A stretch of DNA of 64,000 nt from Deltaproteobacteria bacterium (GCA_027493875.1 JAOSJX010000007.1:62001-126000); one strand, 5' to 3'. Shown: positions 48,891 through 58,865, counted from the first letter of the stretch. A program made the numbers and translations. The notes: generated by a model from the letters alone, not told the origin.

Positions 48891-49589
48891 AAAATATTTC
48901 CCTGTGATTCTTACGGGACTCGTGGGCGCCTTGATATTCCGCACGGCGAGCGCGGCATCGACGGCGAAAAAATACGGCGGAGGACGCGGAGGGATTTTAC
49001 GGGGAAAGCTTTACCAACTACATTCCGAACGACTGGGAAGTTATCGATAACTATCCCGGCGGCGGTTCGTTGTGGTTTGTCGAGGATGATTGGTTCGTTG
49101 ATTGCCAGGAAATCGACGGAGATCAGACTTGTTTGACTGTTTCAGCGGCCGACGGCCAAGGGCCATGAAATGGCCGATACCACGCTTATCAGCCCTTTTA
49201 TTGATTGCGATTTCTGCGAGATCGATTGGATGCTTTATGCCGAATTTCCCGTCACGCTCGATTCCGCAACTGGTACGGCGAAGCTGGAATTATTGTATTT
49301 TGATGCATACGACGGTTGGCGTGTCGCACGAACCCTTGATTCGGATATGTTTACGCAATTTGACATAGCTACCGCTTCCACTCGTTACAATGGTGTTCCG
49401 TTTCGCTTTGCGTTGCGATTTTTCAACGCCATCGAGAACGCAGGCTCGGTCGCCATCGATTACGTCGGGATCGGTGCTTACGAACCAGACGAATACGAGC
49501 CGGACGACGATCTTGATGCCGACGATGATGATCTCGGCGACGACGATGACGACAACGACGACGACAATGCGTCGTGCTGTGGGTATTGA
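48868..49589 (+). CDS. Secreted jelly-roll protein with Asp-rich tail ending SCCGY (frameshifted)
   Basis: TTG start 48868 gives a basic signal peptide (LELFLRAKKYFPVILTGLVG followed by ALIFRTASA). After an indel near 48988, NYIPNDWEVIDNYPGGGSLW, FVEDDWFVDCQEIDGDQTCL and, after another near 49160, MADTTLISPFIDCDFCEIDW follow. The pattern (opening phrase, Trp-rich strand, AD-x-LISPxID) matches the jelly-roll domain of the S8 protease at 39846. The C-terminus is 30 residues of Asp/Glu with few others, ending NASCCGY. Presumably it is a surface-retained binding protein. It overlaps the previous gene by 23 bases. Confidence 0.72.
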
Positions 49590-49705: not shown

Positions 49706-51215
49706 TCAGATCCCGTAAAGCGTTCCGAACTTCTCCGCGACGTACGCCATGAAATCGTCCGCCGAGGGCGGCTTGCCGGTCACGTGCGCGATGAGGTCGT
49801 TCGGCAGGTACAGCCGCCCGACGCGGTGCACTTTTTCGCGCAGCCATTCAAGCAGCGGCGCGAATTCGCCGCGGACGAATCCGTCTTCGACGCCGGGAAT
49901 GTCGCGTTTGCACTGGGCGAAGAGCTGCGCGCCGTTGAGGCTGCCGAGCGCGTAGCTCGGAAAATACCCGACCATGCCGAAAGACCAGTGCACGTCCTGC
50001 AGGCAGCCGTCCGCATCGTCCGGCGGCGTGATGCCGAGGTATTGCTCCATCTTCTTGTTCCACGCCGCGGGCAGGTCGGCGACCGCGAGATCGCCGGCCA
50101 TCAGCTCGCGCTCCAGCTCGAAACGCAGCACGATGTGCAGGCCGTAGGTCACTTCGTCCGCCTCGACGCGGATGAGCGAGGGCTCGACGCGGTTGACGGC
50201 GGCGTAGACCTCGCCCACCGACACACCGTTCAGTTGCTCCGGATACGCCGCGCGCAGCCGCGGCTCGAAGAAAGTCAGAAATCCCTTCGACCGGCCGACG
50301 ATGTTTTCCCACAGGCGCGATTGCGACTCGTGGATCGACATCGAGCACGACGAGCCGAGCGGCGCGCCGGCGTGATCCTCCGACAGCCCCTGCTCGTAGA
50401 GGCCGTGCCCGGCTTCGTGGACGACGCCGTAGAGCGACGCGAAGGGCTGATCCTCGAAGTAGCGCGTCGTCAGACGCACGTCGCCGCCTGTCCCGCTGCA
50501 AAAGGGATGCGCGCTGATATCGAGACGGCCGGCGTCGGTGTCGAATCCGATCGCCGCCATGGCCTCGCGCGCGACCCGTTTTTGAGCCTCGATCGGGTAG
50601 GTGCGCGTGAGGAAATCGGTGCGTGGTTTGAACGGCGCATCGGCGATTTTCTGCACCCACGGCACGAGCTTTTCGCGCAGGCCGCCGAGCACCTCGCCCG
50701 TCGAGCGCGCGGTCGCGCCGGGCTCGTATTCGTCGAGCAGCGCGTCGTAGGGCGTTTCGGGATAGCCCCAATGGTCCGCGATCTGCCGCTTGAGTTTGAA
50801 GATTTTTTCAAGCCACGGGAGAAAGAGCCCGAAATCTTTTTTGCTTGCGCGCCTTGATCCATTCGTCGTGCGCGAGAGAACAAGTGCGCGTCTCTTCCTC
50901 AACCAGCTCGGCGGGCAGTTTCGTCAGCCGGTCGTAGCTTCGCTTCGTCTCGCGCAGCGTCGCCCGCGCGGGCGAGTCGAGATCGCTTTCCGCGTCGGCG
51001 AGCCTGGCGATCCACTCGCCTCGTCTCGCGTCGGTCTGCCGCCGGTGAACGATCCCGGACATGAGCGCCAACTGCCGCGCCTTGGCCTGCAGGCCTTTCG
51101 GCGGCATGAAGGTTTCCTGGTCCCAGGAAAGCAGCCCGGCGATGTTGCCGAGATCCGAAATTTCCTTGGTATCCGCGACGAGCGCGTCGTATGTCTTTTG
51201 GAGATCCCCGTTCAT
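49706..51215 (-). CDS. Carboxypeptidase Taq-type (M32) metallopeptidase, frameshifted near 50840
   Basis: About 503 codons. MNGDLQKTYDALVADTKEIS and LLSWDQETFMPPKGLQAKAR form the M32 N-terminal helices. The catalytic domain has YGVVHEAGHGLYEQGLSEDH (HExxH zinc site), GSSCSMSIHESQSRLWENIV (Glu ligand region), VEADEVTYGLHIVLRFELER and LQDVHWSFGMVGYFPSYALG. The indel lies at a T6 run near 50840. It removes C-terminal residues from peptides in the cytoplasm. ATG 51215 follows a GGGGGAAA site. Length matches the family (about 500). Confidence 0.93.
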
Positions 51216-51435
51216 GATATTTCCCCCGCGCGTGGATCGGCGCCTCCTTTTACCATCGGGGCCGGAGGGCGCCAAGGGGGCGGTGGAAGGATGAGGGATG
51301 AAGGAGGAGGGATAAATAGGACGAGGCGGTGAAGACCGCGGCGTGATGAGCATCGGAAAGCCGCTTTGACGGGCGAACCCGCCGTGGCGTATTCTGATCC
51401 TTCACGCCGCTCCGGCAAAGGAAGAGGAAAGATCG

Positions 51436-51966
51436 ATGAAAAAATCCTCGACGTTTTTGTTGATCCTCGCGATCGCACTTTTCGCGTTGTCGTTCGCCTG
51501 CGGCGACGACGATGACGACGACGCGAAGATCACGAACGACGATCCGGGCTCGTCGGCGGCCGGTGGGGACGATGACGGCGGCGATGACGATGATACGAGC
51601 GACGATGATGACACCGCCGACGATGACGATAATGACGATGACGACGGCGACGACGACGACGACGATGAAACGGACGATGACGACGACACCGAGGAAGCGA
51701 TCACGGACGTCAGCATCGAGAATATGTCCATGAATCCCGATCCGGTCACGATCGGCCAGGGCGGGACGGTCCGGTGGACGAATAACGACAGCGTCCCGCA
51801 TTCGACCACCAGCGGCCAGCCGGACAACCCGGACGGCCTATGGGATTCCGGCCTTCTCGACCCGGGCGACACGTATTCCAGAACGTTCGATTCGGCCGGG
51901 ACCTACATCTATTACTGCAAAGCGCACCCGACCACGATGAACGGCTACGTGGTCAACGTGCAGTAA
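51436..51966 (+). CDS. Asp-rich cupredoxin lipoprotein 1
   Basis: An intact 176-residue protein. The lipoprotein signal has a lipobox ending at Cys22 (FALSFACGDD). Residues 23-88 are almost entirely Asp with some Gly/Thr, followed by a plastocyanin-like domain: VSIENMSMNPDPVTIGQGG, TVRWTNNDSVPHSTTSG (copper His 122), WDSGLLDPGDTYSRTFDSAG and TYIYYCKAHPTTMNGYVVNV (Cys161, His164, Met168). This is a complete type-1 copper site. The protein would be an envelope-anchored electron carrier on an acidic tether. It is the first of four intact homologues in a forward-strand run. Confidence 0.9.
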   Translation: MKKSSTFLLILAIALFALSFACGDDDDDDAKITNDDPGSSAAGGDDDGGDDDDTSDDDDTADDDDNDDDDGDDDDDDETDDDDDTEEAITDVSIENMSMNPDPVTIGQGGTVRWTNNDSVPHSTTSGQPDNPDGLWDSGLLDPGDTYSRTFDSAGTYIYYCKAHPTTMNGYVVNVQ

Positions 51967-52050
51967 CATTTCCTGCGCTTTGTCATAACACGCGGTCCGG
52001 CGCGGGCGTACAGTTTTTCGCCTGAACGATATTCACCCGGGAGAAAAACC

Positions 52051-52515
52051 ATGCGCCGTTTCGCCTTTTCCGCATTTCTCGCTCTCTTATCTGTTTTCGT
52101 TTTATCGGCCGCGATGACGGTCACCGCCTGCGGCGACGACGATGATGACGACGACAGCACCTACGGGGACGACGACGCGGCCGACGATGACGCGTCGGGA
52201 GATGACGACGCCGATGATGACGACGCCGGAGACGACGACGCCGACGTCGTCGATGTTTCCATCGAGGACATGACGATGAATCCGGACCCGGTGACGATCG
52301 CCGCCGGCCAAACGGTGCGTTGGACGAACAACGACAGCGTGCCGCACACGACGACCAGCGGCGAGCCGGACGCCGAGGACGGCCTGTGGGATTCGGGGAC
52401 GCTGGACACCGGCGACTCGTTCTCGCACACGTTCGACGAGGCCGGCACGTTCATTTACTTCTGCGCCGTTCACCCGGACACGATGACGGGATACGAAGTG
52501 ATCGTGGAGGAGTAA
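52051..52515 (+). CDS. Asp-rich cupredoxin lipoprotein 2
   Basis: 154 residues. Signal and lipobox end at SAAMTVTAC-GDDDD. An Asp-rich linker of about 40 residues leads to the cupredoxin: VSIEDMTMNPDPVTIAAGQT, VRWTNNDSVPHTTTSG (His), DSFSHTFDEAGTFIYFCAVH (Cys, His) and PDTMTGYEVIVEE (Met). The type-1 copper ligands are complete. It lies 84 bases after copy 1. Domain sequences are close enough to suggest duplication, whereas the linkers differ in length and register. Confidence 0.9.
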   Translation: MRRFAFSAFLALLSVFVLSAAMTVTACGDDDDDDDSTYGDDDAADDDASGDDDADDDDAGDDDADVVDVSIEDMTMNPDPVTIAAGQTVRWTNNDSVPHTTTSGEPDAEDGLWDSGTLDTGDSFSHTFDEAGTFIYFCAVHPDTMTGYEVIVEE

Positions 52516-52581
52516 CCGCCTCCGTGATCACGTGTTGACGCGTTCACTCGGTTTACAAGAGCTACCCGTGGGAGGAGATCG

Positions 52582-53240
52582 ATGATCAGGTCCTTAAAAG
52601 TGGAAGCCGCTCGACGTTCGCCCGTTCCATTCTCTGGATCGTGCTGCTGGCGGCCGTCGCCGGCATGGCCGGAATGCTCGTCGTGGCGTGCGGCGGCGAC
52701 GATGATGACGATGACAACGATGACGCCGGCGACGACGATTCCGGCGCGGCGGACGACGATGCGACGGACGACGATGCCGATGATGACATGGATGATGACG
52801 CCGATGACGATATGGACGATGACGCGGATGACGACGCGGACGACGACATGGACGACGACATGGATGACGACGCGGATGACGACATGGACGACGATGCCGA
52901 TGATGACGTGGACGACGACGATGACGATACCGGCGACGACGACGATGACGACACGTCGGGCGGAAGCATCGCTGACGTCTCCATCGCATCCAGCACGATG
53001 AACCCCGATCCGGTCAACATCAGCGTCGGCGACACGGTGCGCTGGACGAACAACGACGGCGTCCCGCACACCACCACCAGCGGATCGCCGGGAAACCCTG
53101 ACGGCGAGTGGGATTCCGGGACGCTCGGCAACGGCGACTCGTACTCGCACACGTTTACGGTCGCCGGCACCTACACCTACTACTGCAAGATCCACGGCGT
53201 CGCGATGTCCGGCTACGAGGTGATCGTCAGCGCGGACTAG
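52582..53240 (+). CDS. Asp-rich cupredoxin lipoprotein 3 (indel near 52610)
   Basis: About 219 codons. MIRSLKVEA, then in another frame ARSILWIVLLAAVAGMAGML and VVAC-GGDDDDDD (lipobox), give a signal that is split by an indel near 52610. The Asp linker is the longest of the family (about 85 residues, with Met-Asp and Ala-Asp repeats). The cupredoxin domain has VRWTNNDGVPHTTTSG, SYSHTFTVAGTYTYYCKIHG and VAMSGYEVIVSAD, with His, Cys, His and Met ligands kept. The gene is followed by a strong terminator at 53260. Confidence 0.85.
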
Positions 53241-53569
53241 ACGACGGGGAACGGCAACAAAAAAAAAGGCGGCCCGCGCCGCCTTTTTTTTATTCGCGCG
53301 GGCCGGACCGCGCGCGGTCGACCGCCGGACACCGCGCGTTCGTGAGCGTTCTTTGTAACAACGCTCCGGCTTCCCGACGGTTTCGCCCTCATTTGACCGG
53401 CTCGACGGAGCCCTCGCTTCCGCGGCCAACCCGCCGATTCTCCACCGGCTTTCGAGCCGCGCGGCCCGGCCGTTGCAAGCCAGCCCACTGACCTTCGTCA
53501 TACGGTCCGGTTTCCCGACCCCGATACGCTTGGTACTCGAAACGTTGAGTCCAGAAACGGAGGTCCGAC
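53241..53569. other. Intergenic region after cupredoxin 3
   Basis: It contains the terminator at 53260-53292. Beyond that I see no gene or clear motif. Confidence 0.5.
53260..53292. terminator. Bidirectional rho-independent terminator
   Basis: An A-run, then GGCGGC...GCCGCC and a run of at least eight T. The A and T tracts on both sides allow function on either strand. It ends the cupredoxin 1-3 cluster. Confidence 0.85.
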
Positions 53570-53875
53570 ATGAACATGAACAGGTTTACGAAAATCGGGG
53601 CAGCGCGCGCCGGCAACGGCTCGCTCTTCTGGATGCTGGCCGTGCTTTTGGCGTCGGTGTGCCTTTTCCTTATGGCCCAGACGGCCTGCGTCGGCCAACC
53701 GGACGACGAGGCGGCGGACGACACCGCGGGGAACAACGACATCCGTCTCGATTTCGGTGCGGACAACGACGCTCCGGACTCGAATGGTGACGTGGTGATC
53801 CCGACGACGACGATGCCGCCGACGACACAGTCGGAACCGGAAACCGTCAAACCCGGGACGACGAACGAGAAATGA
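53570..53875 (+). CDS. Degenerate cupredoxin-lipoprotein relative lacking the copper domain
   Basis: 101 residues. The N-terminal part (MNMNRFTKIGAARAGNGSLF, WMLAVLLASVCLFLMAQTAC) matches the signal peptide and lipobox of copy 4 (MSRFTKSKTASGADTRGFW...HTAC). After the Cys comes a short acidic stretch (VGQPDDEAADDTAGNNDIRL), then a Thr/Pro-rich end with no cupredoxin. It is probably a truncated paralogue, or a gene that kept only the anchor. Confidence 0.6.
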   Translation: MNMNRFTKIGAARAGNGSLFWMLAVLLASVCLFLMAQTACVGQPDDEAADDTAGNNDIRLDFGADNDAPDSNGDVVIPTTTMPPTTQSEPETVKPGTTNEK

Positions 53876-54223
53876 CGACACGACCCGGTAAACGCCAAAC
53901 CATGGAGGTGCGAGGCGGACGACCGAGCCGCAACGGCTCCCGCCTCGTGCCTCGACATCGGCCGCGGCCGAAACCCAAGCCCGTCATGTTTGTTGGCTCC
54001 CAACGTAAGCAGGCATGCGATAACGCGCACTCTCTTTGCCGAACCAGGCCTGATAAAAATAAGGGGTATTCAGTAACTCGTCGATTTGACAACGTTATTT
54101 TCGTTGCCTGGCGCCCGGCTTTCGGTTGGCGAGCCGGCTTACTGAGCTTTGTCATAGGAACCGCGCTCGGCGCGGCTCTACCCTGAAGCCAATTGAAATT
54201 TCATTTTGACTTGGAGGTTGCAG
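53876..54223. other. Intergenic region before cupredoxin 4
   Basis: About 350 bases with no supported gene. A TTGGAGG ribosome site lies at its 3' end, immediately before the cupredoxin 4 start. Confidence 0.5.
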
Positions 54224-54805
54224 ATGAGCAGGTTCACGAAAAGCAAAACGGCAAGCGGAGCCGATACCCGAGGTTTTTGGATGGTGATGGCTTTGCTTGC
54301 GGCGCTCTGCGCTCTGGCCGTCACGCACACGGCGTGCGGCGGCGACGACGACGACGATGACGACAACGATGACGCGTCGGACGACGATGCGGCCGACGAC
54401 GACATGGACGACGACGATGACGCCGATGACGACGTCGACGACGATGCGGACGATGACGCCGATGACGACGTCGACGACGATGCGGACGATGACGCCGACG
54501 ATGATGATGACGATGACGATACCGCCGGCCCGCAGACGGTCGATGTGTCGATCGTCGGGATGACGATGGTCCCCGACCCGGTCACGATCGCGGTCGGCGA
54601 TACGGTCCGCTGGACGAACAACGATCTCGTGGGCCACACCACGACGAGCGGCTCGCCCGGCGCGCCGGACGGGACGTGGGATTCGGGAAACCTCTCCAAC
54701 GGGGACGACTTCGAATTTCTGTTCGAGGCGGCCGGGACCTACACCTACTACTGCAAAAATCACTCGGGGACGATGAACGGTTACCAGATCATCGTGACGG
54801 AATAA
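54224..54805 (+). CDS. Asp-rich cupredoxin lipoprotein 4
   Basis: About 193 residues from ATG 54224, chosen for the GGAGG site eight bases upstream. Signal and lipobox: FWMVMALLAALCALAVTHTA-C. An Asp/Ala linker of about 60 residues has a repeated DDDVDDDADDDA unit. The cupredoxin reads VDVSIVGMTMVPDPVTIAVG, TVRWTNNDLVGHTTTSG (His), DFEFLFEAAGTYTYYCKNHS (Cys, His) and GTMNGYQIIVTE (Met). It is followed by its own terminator at 54843. Confidence 0.9.
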   Translation: MSRFTKSKTASGADTRGFWMVMALLAALCALAVTHTACGGDDDDDDDNDDASDDDAADDDMDDDDDADDDVDDDADDDADDDVDDDADDDADDDDDDDDTAGPQTVDVSIVGMTMVPDPVTIAVGDTVRWTNNDLVGHTTTSGSPGAPDGTWDSGNLSNGDDFEFLFEAAGTYTYYCKNHSGTMNGYQIIVTE

Positions 54806-54877: not shown

Positions 54878-57179
54878 CTACGCGGGAAGAATCGGCGACG
54901 GTTTTCCGAGCGAGATCACCCAAAGCTGGTGGATGGCGCGCGTGGCCGCGACGTGCAGCATGCGCCGTGATTCCGGCGTGTCGGGATAGCTGCCGGGCTC
55001 GGCGTCCGGAAGGACGACGTAGTCGAACTCCAGCCCCTTCACCTGCGCGACGCACGTGACGTCGACGCCGGGCTGAAAGCTGAATTCACCGTCGAGCACG
55101 AGGCGCGTGTTCGGCAGGCGGGAGAGCGACGCGAAAACGCGCCGCGCGACGCGCGGGCGGCGGGCGATGACGGCGACGCTCGCGCGCGGTTCGCGCCGGA
55201 AAAGCGCCGCCAGCGCCTCGGTCAGAAACACCGCGGCGTGGCCCTCGTTCGGAAACAGCGATTGCGCGACGGGCACGCCGTCGCGCACCGCCACCGGCGC
55301 CTCCGCCGGCGCGATCGGCCCCAGCACGCGGTGCGCGTATTCCGCGATGGGGCGCGGCGAGCGGTAGGTCGTTTTCAAATGCGCCGACGACACGCGTTTC
55401 ACGCCCAGCAAATCGAGCGCATCCTCCCAACTCTTAAACGACGCGGACGGGTCGATCTGCTGCGCGGCGTCGCCGGCGATCGTGACGCTGGCCGTGCTGC
55501 GCAGCGATTCGCCGAGCACGCGCAGCTCCACCGGCGCCAGATCCTGCGCCTCGTCCACCACCATGTGCGCGTACGTGTGCATGCGGCCGTGCGGCGTTTT
55601 GATTTTGCCGGTCTTCAAGCGCACGAGTTCGAGCAGCACGGCGAAGTCTTCCACGTCGATGGTGCCGGCGATTTCCTCCGGCGTCCCTTCGTCGAGGGAA
55701 CGTCCGTCGACCGCGGTGAGACGGTCGGGATCGAACCCGTGCATCCGCGATTCGGTCGGCTCGTCGAATTGAAGGCGCGCATGTTCGAGCACTTCGTCCA
55801 CCATCCCGGCGGTCAGCTCCCGTTCGAGGCCAGAACGACTTCGTCCAGCAGCGCGCGGTCGGAGAAGAGCTCAATGCGGTCCGCGGAGGCGTCGAACAGA
55901 AGTTCCTTTTCCTCGGTGACGGCCTCGCGCGCGTCGCGAAACGCCTGCGCCGCCTCCGGATGAAGAATCGGATTGGGGCGGCGCGCGGCGAGGTTTTTCT
56001 CAAGCGTCTCCAGTCGCGCGAGCAACGGTTTTTTCTTGTCGCCGGCGAACGCCTCGACGAGGTCGCGATGATCCGACAACCGGCGGCGGAGCCGGCCCAC
56101 GACCTCCGCCTCGCGGCGGCGATGCACTTCCGGGAGCACGGTCAGCAGCGCGGGATGGCGCTTGAACCGCGACACGCGGGGCGGCGTCGTTTCGCAAACG
56201 CGTTTGGGCACCGCGCGCAACAGCATGCGGGCCTGCGTCTTGATCCAGTCGTCGAACGTCGTCACGCGGACGGCTTTCATGCCGAGGCCTTCGAGAAGGC
56301 GTTTGGAGAGACGGACGAGGCCGACGGCGGGCACAACGACGATCATCCGCGTCGGGCGGTAGCGTTCCTTGTCGCGGTACGCCAGTTGCGCGAGACGGTG
56401 CAGCGCGACGGTGGTTTTGCCCGAGCCCGCGCCGCCGAGCACGAGAAGCGGCACGCGGTCGTCGGCTTCGAGCAGCGCGTATTGCTCGCGGTCGAGCAGC
56501 GCGGAGACGTCCGGAACGCGCTTGCCGCCGTGCCCCGTGCCGAGCACGAGGCCGCGCACCGCCTGCCCCTGCCCGCCTTCCAGCGTCGGCGCGCGCTCCG
56601 GCTCGTCCTCCATCCACTCGCCGTTGTCGCGGGCGAAGCAGCGTTCCGGCGTTTGCACGCGGACGAGGTCGCCGCCGTCGATCGTCAGCACGCGGCGTAA
56701 TTCGACCACGCCCTCCGTGACGCCGCCGGGAAACTCCTCCTCGTAGTCCTCGCCCTCGCCGTAGGTGTAGAAGATGCGCGAGACGGGCGCGTGGCGCCAG
56801 TCGATGATGGTGATGCCGCTGTCCGCGTCGATGAAGGTCCGGTAGCCGAGCAGGATTTCCTTGACGCGCCCACCCTCCCGCAAACGCATGCGCGCGAAAT
56901 ACGGCGAGCGCGGATCGGGCAGCGCCGTGTCCGACGACCAGCCGGCGAGCGCCTGATGCGTGTGAAGCTGTTCCAGCAGCGAGGGAAGATCGGACTCCGC
57001 GGCGCGGGCGGCCTCGTCGCGCAATTCGCGCAGCCGGCCGTGAACCTGTTCCATGTCGGGGGCGGCGGCGCGCCCCCCGCCGCGGCCAGCGCCCTGCGGA
57101 CGCGCGCGAGAAGCTCCTCTTCCTCGCGGATGACGGCCCGGTCCTCGCCGGATAATTTTTCGACCATCGCCCCGGACAT
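54878..57179 (-). CDS. HelD-like UvrD/Rep-family helicase (frameshifted)
   Basis: About 767 codons. The N-terminal helical region (SGEDRAVIREEEELLARVRR) and SPYFARMRLREGG, then ITIIDWRHAPVSRIFYTYGE are HelD hallmarks (the DWRxP segment). LLVLGGAGSGKTTVALHRLA is the Walker A motif, MVVDEAQDLAPVELRVLGES Walker B, LKTTYRSPRPIAEYAHRVLG a later motif and VAQVKGLEFDYVVLPDAEPG motif V. Indels lie at the C6 run near 57070 and near 55830. HelD clears stalled RNA polymerase in Gram-positive bacteria; the role in this lineage is inferred. ATG 57179 follows a GGTGGGAG site. Confidence 0.82.
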
Positions 57180-57877: not shown

Positions 57878-57952
57878 GGGATCCTCCGGTATCGAACCCT
57901 TGAAGCATAACAAATAGGAAAATTCGCCGATAGCGGCGGGACGTCTAGCCGC

Positions 57953-58131
57953 CATTTCTCACCGGGTTTCGTCGCGAGGCGGCGGAGACGGCGGGCGAGA
58001 CGCCGCGTTGGAGAACCGCGAACGCGAGGCGTACGGGGACGGTACGTCGCAGCGGGCGCGGGCCGAAACGTCCCCCTTCGAGCGGGACAGCTGACGGATC
58101 CGTCGCCGTAGGAGAAACCCGGTGAGAAATG
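57953..58131. repeat. MITE-like element with 18-bp terminal inverted repeats
   Basis: catttctcaccgggtttc at 57953-57970 is exactly inverted at 58114-58131. The 143-base interior has no open frame of note. The element lies between the DUF433 start and the stop of the flavin reductase. No target-site duplication is obvious. Confidence 0.65.
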
Positions 58132-58135
58132 CGGG

Positions 58136-58865
58136 TTAGGAGCCCTGTTGCGCCTGGCGTTCGGCGAGGCGGCGCATCATTTCTTCGCGGCGGCGCTTGG
58201 CTTCGAGCTGGTCCTTGAAGAAGACCTCCATGTGGACGCGGTCTTTCGGCACCTCGCGTTCGTTCAGCCACTCGGACACCTGAAACAGCATGGTATCCAG
58301 GCCGCACAGATAATAGTGCGCCTCGTCCTCGCGGAGAACCTGTCCCAGGAGATCGGTCACGCGTCCGGCGTGGCAACCGTCGCGTTCCTCGCGCGACAGG
58401 CACAGACGCGTGTCGCACCAGTTTTTCAACTCCTCGTACCCGACGGCGTCCTCGAATTTTCGCACACCGTAAAGAAGAAGATCGGGCGGCTCGTCGGGGG
58501 TGCGCGCGCATGTAGGAGAGCAGCGGCGTGATGCCGGTGCCGGTGGCGATGTAGATGAACGGTTTATGCTTGCCGACGAGAAACATCCCGAAGGGCCCGC
58601 GGAAGCTGATCGTATCGCCCGCGCTCAGTTCCGCGAGGTACGGTGAGAGCTTTCCGACCGGGACGTGCTTGATGATGAGGCGGAAGTGATCGTCGTCCGG
58701 CCCCGACGCCAGCGAAAAAGACCGCACCGTCTTGCCGTCCGGCCCCACGACCGACAGCGCCATGCCGGGTTTGAACGGAAGATCGACGCGGTCGAGCAAC
58801 ACCTCGAACACGTCGTCGGTCAGCCAGTGAATCTTTTGAACCTTCGTCTCGTGCGTGACGATCAC
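58136..58865 (-). CDS. Ferredoxin-NADP-reductase-type flavoprotein, frameshifted
   Basis: About 243 codons. VLLDRVDLPFKPGMALSVVG and GKTVRSFSLASGPDDDHFRL (FAD motif R-x-F-S) are followed by GDTISFRGPFGMFLVGKHKP and FIYIATGTGITPLLSYMRAH (nucleotide site). After an indel at 58496-58500 (G5) the end contains HYYLCGLDTMLFQVSEWLNE (CGxDxM motif) and KDRVHMEVFFKDQL. It reduces ferredoxin or flavodoxin, or oxidises NAD(P)H. Lying just after the suf operon it may supply electrons for Fe-S assembly. GTG start. Confidence 0.88.

Follow-up and report, generated by a model that had tools for sequence, protein, structure and literature searches.

Clustered cupredoxins, predicted to be lipoproteins, on a poly-Asp tether that is general in their bacterial class

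The closest solved relatives of the proteins described here are the purple cupredoxin of Nitrosopumilus maritimus (5fc9) and the amicyanins and plastocyanins (PF00127). They have the same fold and the same His/Cys/His/Met type-1 ligands but, unlike them, the present proteins are predicted to be lipid-anchored via an Asp tract. A physiological role has been proposed for another blue-copper protein, auracyanin, as electron acceptor from alternative complex III (ACIII) in Chloroflexus (PMC3150298). Other described systems concern the anchor. The lipoprotein export signal of Bacteroides fragilis is SDDDD, placed directly after the Cys, and leads to the surface (PMC5080379). About half of outer-membrane lipoproteins have long disordered N-terminal linkers, which are important for their relocation (PMC11671585). 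At the other end of secreted proteins, MYXO-CTERM consists of a Gly/Cys-rich GCGC motif near the C-terminus, then a helix and Arg residues (PMC11980579).

The window analysed here is a stretch of 64,000 nucleotides from the genome of a Deltaproteobacteria bacterium (JAOSJX010000007.1:62001-126000). Its region 51436-54805 carries four + strand genes built on one plan: a lipobox Cys is followed by an Asp-rich linker and then by a type-1 copper domain. These genes, a short ORF located among them (gene X) and an ORF outside the array are as follows.

49170-49589, + strand: ORF ending in an Asp tract and a Cys-rich terminus (...DDDDDNDDDNASCCGY)
51436-51966, + strand: gene A, lipobox Cys at codon 22, PF00127 6.5e-11
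51502-51696, + strand: Asp linker of gene A (65 residues, 38 Asp)
51697-51963, + strand: cupredoxin domain of gene A
52051-52515, + strand: gene B, lipobox Cys at codon 27, PF00127 1.3e-9
52132-52248, + strand: Asp linker of gene B (39 residues, 24 Asp)
52249-52512, + strand: cupredoxin domain of gene B
52582-53240, + strand: gene C, in-frame ORF 52641-53240, PF00127 1.7e-9
52692-52967, + strand: Asp linker of gene C (92 residues, 62 Asp)
52968-53237, + strand: copper domain of gene C
53570-53875, + strand: gene X, short lipoprotein-like ORF, Asp-poor, signal peptide common to gene D, no Pfam match
54224-54805, + strand: gene D, lipobox Cys at codon 38, PF00127 1.9e-8
54338-54532, + strand: Asp linker of gene D (65 residues, 46 Asp), with a 36-bp direct repeat at 54413-54498
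54533-54802, + strand: cupredoxin domain of gene D

Genes for an M32 peptidase and a UvrD-like helicase flank the array, and 3 kb farther away an FAD oxidoreductase is encoded; none of the neighbours directly beside it is a redox partner gene. An Rfam search of the window gave no match.

The four copper domains score 35.1-43 bits with PF00127 (gathering cut-off 21.2) and are 61-71% identical to one another. The linkers vary from 39 to 92 residues, and the pattern of similar domains on variable linkers seen by the earlier note is thus confirmed, as is its claim of complete ligands: the H and C-x2-H-x3-M are kept in all four copies. Its description of the linkers as almost only Asp and 40-85 residues long has to be corrected, since the Asp share of A, B, C and D (65, 39, 92 and 65 residues) is 58-71% and Ala, Gly, Thr, Met and Val recur as spacers. 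The AlphaFold (AF2) model of domain B (mean pLDDT 98.0) is a beta-sandwich of the cupredoxin type. Its best match among solved structures is 5fc9 (TM 0.88), followed by amicyanins and plastocyanins. None of the four proteins reaches the NCBIfam cut-offs for plastocyanin, amicyanin or halocyanin (best bits 44.7, 39.8 and 31.2 for cut-offs of 87.85, 110.2 and 93.8 respectively). Thus they are cupredoxins without a named subfamily.

By sequence, A, B and D show a basic n-region, a hydrophobic stretch and a lipobox Cys. For gene C the sole in-frame start is the GTG at 52641, and the resulting signal peptide has no basic n-region; upstream, the ATG at 52582 has a strong ribosome site and lies in a different frame. 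This ATG is likely the true start, with a frameshift that falls probably within the signal-peptide region, at TTAAAAGT. The break is likely a sequencing or assembly indel because other conserved genes are also split in this assembly, namely those for the M32 peptidase, the UvrD helicase, COX1, CcoN and LolA; gene C has a lipoprotein signal only if this is so. The plan common to the four genes stands, with PF00127 above its cut-off in each, but C is not intact as sequenced. Frequent indels probably also explain the low completeness estimate (77.8%). Split genes with overlapping frames were located at 49706-51353 (M32 peptidase), 54878-57054 (UvrD-like helicase) and 57945-58865 of the window, and at L168:8214-9877 and L169:7365-9580.

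The signal peptide of gene X aligns with that of gene D with a score of 82, against a mean of 24.8 for shuffled sequences (Z = 10.8). After its first Cys, Asp makes up 14% of the residues. The same ORF had been taken for a fifth locus that kept the anchor and lost the copper domain. A signal peptide like that of D is indeed there, but the loss of a copper domain is unsupported: between C and D no copper-domain relic was found, the best tblastn matches being at noise level. A lost copper domain is just one way of reading gene X.

The four array genes are the only PF00127 proteins of the 5.2 Mb genome. In the 193 genomes searched no other cluster of separate PF00127 genes is as large, none of the other genomes having four that are separate and adjacent; as we read the places listed, most other close PF00127 pairs in these genomes are two domains in one frame. 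The plan of lipobox, Asp tract and cupredoxin is also present in two other genera of the family, where all five cupredoxins are Asp-tethered and a tandem pair is present in one relative. The tree, which includes outgroups, places the nine domains of the family (four from the array and five from the relatives) in one clade (support 95/90). Branching inside this clade is poorly supported: the first tree splits the four copies of the array, and a topology test neither shows nor rejects their monophyly (p-AU 0.25). Judged from their sequences, the four genes are clearly paralogues in one place that arose by duplication, and the tree would be compatible with a duplication restricted to this lineage as well as with one that preceded the split of the genera. 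Four unrelated acquisitions of the domain, the outcome that would have spoken against the proposal of the earlier note, are rejected because the family homologues group together and already carry the tether. The array is a gene-family expansion of a known kind, modest by itself. No relevant paper on tandem cupredoxin lipoproteins turned up in the open-access literature searched, which is not proof of absence.

The tether extends far beyond the cupredoxins. In this genome seven consecutive Asp (D7) give 403 overlapping matches, versus 0 for the reversed-pattern control, an abundance well above chance. The signature C-G-D6 is found 59/35/77/5/49/17/0 times in the seven class members (59 in this genome), i.e. 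in six of seven, with one match in 379 other genomes; for ACGDDDD the counts are 29/13/18/0/41/16/0, with 0 in 53 other genomes. A genome sample of 40 stretches of about 20 kb (799 kb) was analysed, per-genome estimates being made from the 36 stretches that had not been chosen for matches (719 kb). In these, lipobox-plus-Asp proteins number at least 26 and C-terminal Asp-plus-Cys proteins at least 15. Scaled to the genome, this gives about 190 and 110 respectively, rough figures obtained with simple rules by which several clear cases were missed. In the sample 43 Asp-linked proteins, nearly all of them lipoproteins, bear unrelated domains, including GH31, penicillin amidase, pectinacetylesterase, AhpC/thioredoxin, VWA, exo/endonuclease and a cytochrome c. 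Residue +2 of the Asp-linked lipoproteins is Gly in 19 of 37, Asp in 3 of 37 and Ser in 3 of 37. PF00127 is entirely missing from the proteins of class members in two other families, and the tether is present also in such genomes. One genome of the same class (G006, 84% complete) has zero for all three Asp signatures tested.

The search in other genomes recovered the plan in the cupredoxins of the relatives, and it also found the linker class-wide and on unrelated domains. From these counts, the Asp tether belongs to the bacterial class in general and is no peculiarity of the cupredoxins. Its presence on dozens of unrelated lipoproteins calls for an explanation apart from copper or electron transfer. 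Nor does the array form appear copper-specific, local duplication of Asp-tethered lipoprotein genes being common in this genome as judged by its paralogues. Sets of three from other families lie at L121:9710-12422 (62-65% identity) and L128:14580-16780, and pairs at L106:9898-11070, L127:18375-19305 and L129:8400-10996, with identities of 35-87% overall. Two distant large Asp-linked lipoproteins, L094:15479-18001 and L103:4515-5729, are 90% identical over 312 residues, a similarity that marks them as a recent dispersed duplication. For polyaspartate or aspartate-rich lipoprotein linkers the open-access literature gave no relevant paper, and this again is not proof of absence.

The class also has a C-terminal tag: an Asp tract and a Gly, after which the protein ends in GCGC or CCGC. 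Overlapping matches to Asp4 followed by a terminal GCGC number 40/51/74/3/48/70/0 in the seven class members, and there are none in 53 other genomes. The carriers are of secreted type, with FG-GAP, subtilase, PKD, papain, M14 and metallophosphatase domains; examples are located on the - strand at L098:9055-10089, L105:8432-10828, L124:17214-20000, L126:15572-17014 and L129:5058-5993. The ORF at 49170-49589 is, by its terminus, a variant of this tag outside the copper array. As in MYXO-CTERM, a GCGC near the C-terminus is found on many secreted-type proteins of this class. Unlike MYXO-CTERM, which combines the Cys motif with a transmembrane helix and an Arg-rich tail, the class tag has the Cys motif as its last element, lacks both helix and Arg cluster, and carries the Asp tract ahead of the motif; MYXO-CTERM is also absent from the 25 NCBIfam families listed for 20 members. 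A single protein of the 799-kb sample is MYXO-CTERM-like (L129, + strand, a 410-residue frame ending CGCSVMSGEAGGEPAAMMLLVLAAAVLWTVRRRC, with Cys motif, helix and Arg tail), and both C-terminal forms thus occur in this genome.

The C-terminal Asp-GCGC tag is possibly an undescribed sorting signal, and it may be a more novel lead than the array. Taken together with the N-terminal form, it allows a wider reading that we put forward tentatively: poly-Asp could be a two-ended envelope anchoring code, written as lipobox-Cys-Gly-Asp(n) at the N-terminus and as Asp(n)-Gly-Cys-rich GCGC/CCGC-stop at the C-terminus, and served by a dedicated undescribed machinery of which the cupredoxins would be one user.

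For the array itself we favour, with moderate confidence, paralogous blue-copper electron carriers mounted on the generic polyanionic tether of the lineage, moved by Lol to the outer membrane and forming an envelope electron relay. The cupredoxins would be exported via the Sec pathway, then lipidated on the lipobox Cys, a step predicted from their signal peptides, and cleaved to a mature N-terminus Cys-Gly-Asp(n). The long disordered Asp tract would then act as the generic lipoprotein tether of the class and enable Lol transfer. An outer-membrane location is likely because Gly is the commonest residue at +2 and Asp is rare there, LolA is encoded in the genome and disordered linkers aid Lol. 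The acidic run after the Cys is probably also a sorting or surface-display signal, by analogy with the Bacteroidota export signal (K-(D/E)2, SDDDD, SDDFE), in which many unrelated lipoproteins likewise have an acidic run directly behind the lipobox Cys. It looks like a much longer version of that signal, with 39-92 residues instead of four or five, and in another lineage. Against the analogy, the characterised signals have a polar or basic residue and then at least two acidic ones at +2 to +6, whereas here in most cases Gly comes first, before the acidic run.

The side of the membrane, the redox partners and any division of labour between the copies are what we infer here. A periplasm-facing copper domain would relay electrons between ACIII and the haem-copper oxidases, and an outward-facing one would pass them to outside partners. 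ACIII-caa3 and cbb3 operons are indeed encoded in the genome, as the relay would have it; but the absence of a redox partner gene directly beside the array speaks against it. The likeness to auracyanin, a small type-1 copper protein in several copies in an organism with ACIII, is one of co-occurrence only. To our knowledge the auracyanin copies of Chloroflexus are dispersed and have no poly-Asp tether. Since two other families of the class do without PF00127, the copper proteins do not belong to the respiratory core of the class. Under the electron-relay reading the set would have grown by gene duplication and the linkers would drift in length, partly via repeat expansion.

Clustered copies with no redox genes directly beside them, on polyanionic linkers of 24-62 Asp per protein, could also suit copper handling, i.e. 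scavenging, buffering or resistance at the envelope, the copies raising capacity and the acidic tether adding weak cation binding. We consider this unlikely: the ligand set is the full type-1 set and the closest folds are mostly electron carriers, the same tether is found on enzymes without a metal role, and the metal ATPase that was found sits with cbb3, away from the array.

Less probable still is mostly neutral evolution of the Asp tracts, with GAY-codon repeats expanding by slippage in any exposed, flexible linker while selection keeps solubility only. Linker D has a 50-bp exact self-match at a shift of 36, and a match as long arose in 1 of 1000 synonymous shuffles; the loosely constrained linker lengths go in the same direction. 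But in the synonymous-shuffle test A, B and C show no DNA repeat beyond the level forced by their amino acids. Placement in the class is, moreover, non-random, directly after the lipobox Cys or just before the terminal Cys motif, and such an excess is lacking in 379 other genomes (N-terminal form) and in 53 (C-terminal form). Of the repeated duplication with slippage suggested by the earlier note, paralogy holds for the four genes, and slippage is kept for linker D and rejected as a general cause of linker variation.

A tether tuned for these electron carriers, by off-membrane spacing or metal binding as the earlier note suggested, with the array as a copper-specific invention, would account for its presence in four of four array copies and five of five copies of the relatives. 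It is very improbable, being largely refuted by the class-wide distribution, i.e. dozens of unrelated lipoproteins, C-termini with a different anchor and genomes without PF00127. Misassembly of the tracts or copies, to which the frequent frameshifts of the assembly might point, can practically be dismissed, as the copies are just 61-71% identical with differing linkers and spacers, and separate genomes of five other class members have the same tracts.

The copper array is thus mostly explained, and the novelty lies rather in the class-wide Asp anchor code. In a poorly known class, each genome would encode dozens, up to a few hundred, of lipoproteins and secreted-type proteins that are anchored via Asp tracts, and arrays with such tethers should not, in these genomes, be interpreted as related to metals. 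This raises the question of whether the acidic tract is a sorting or surface-display signal, to be compared with the shorter SDDDD of Bacteroides, or a mere spacer.
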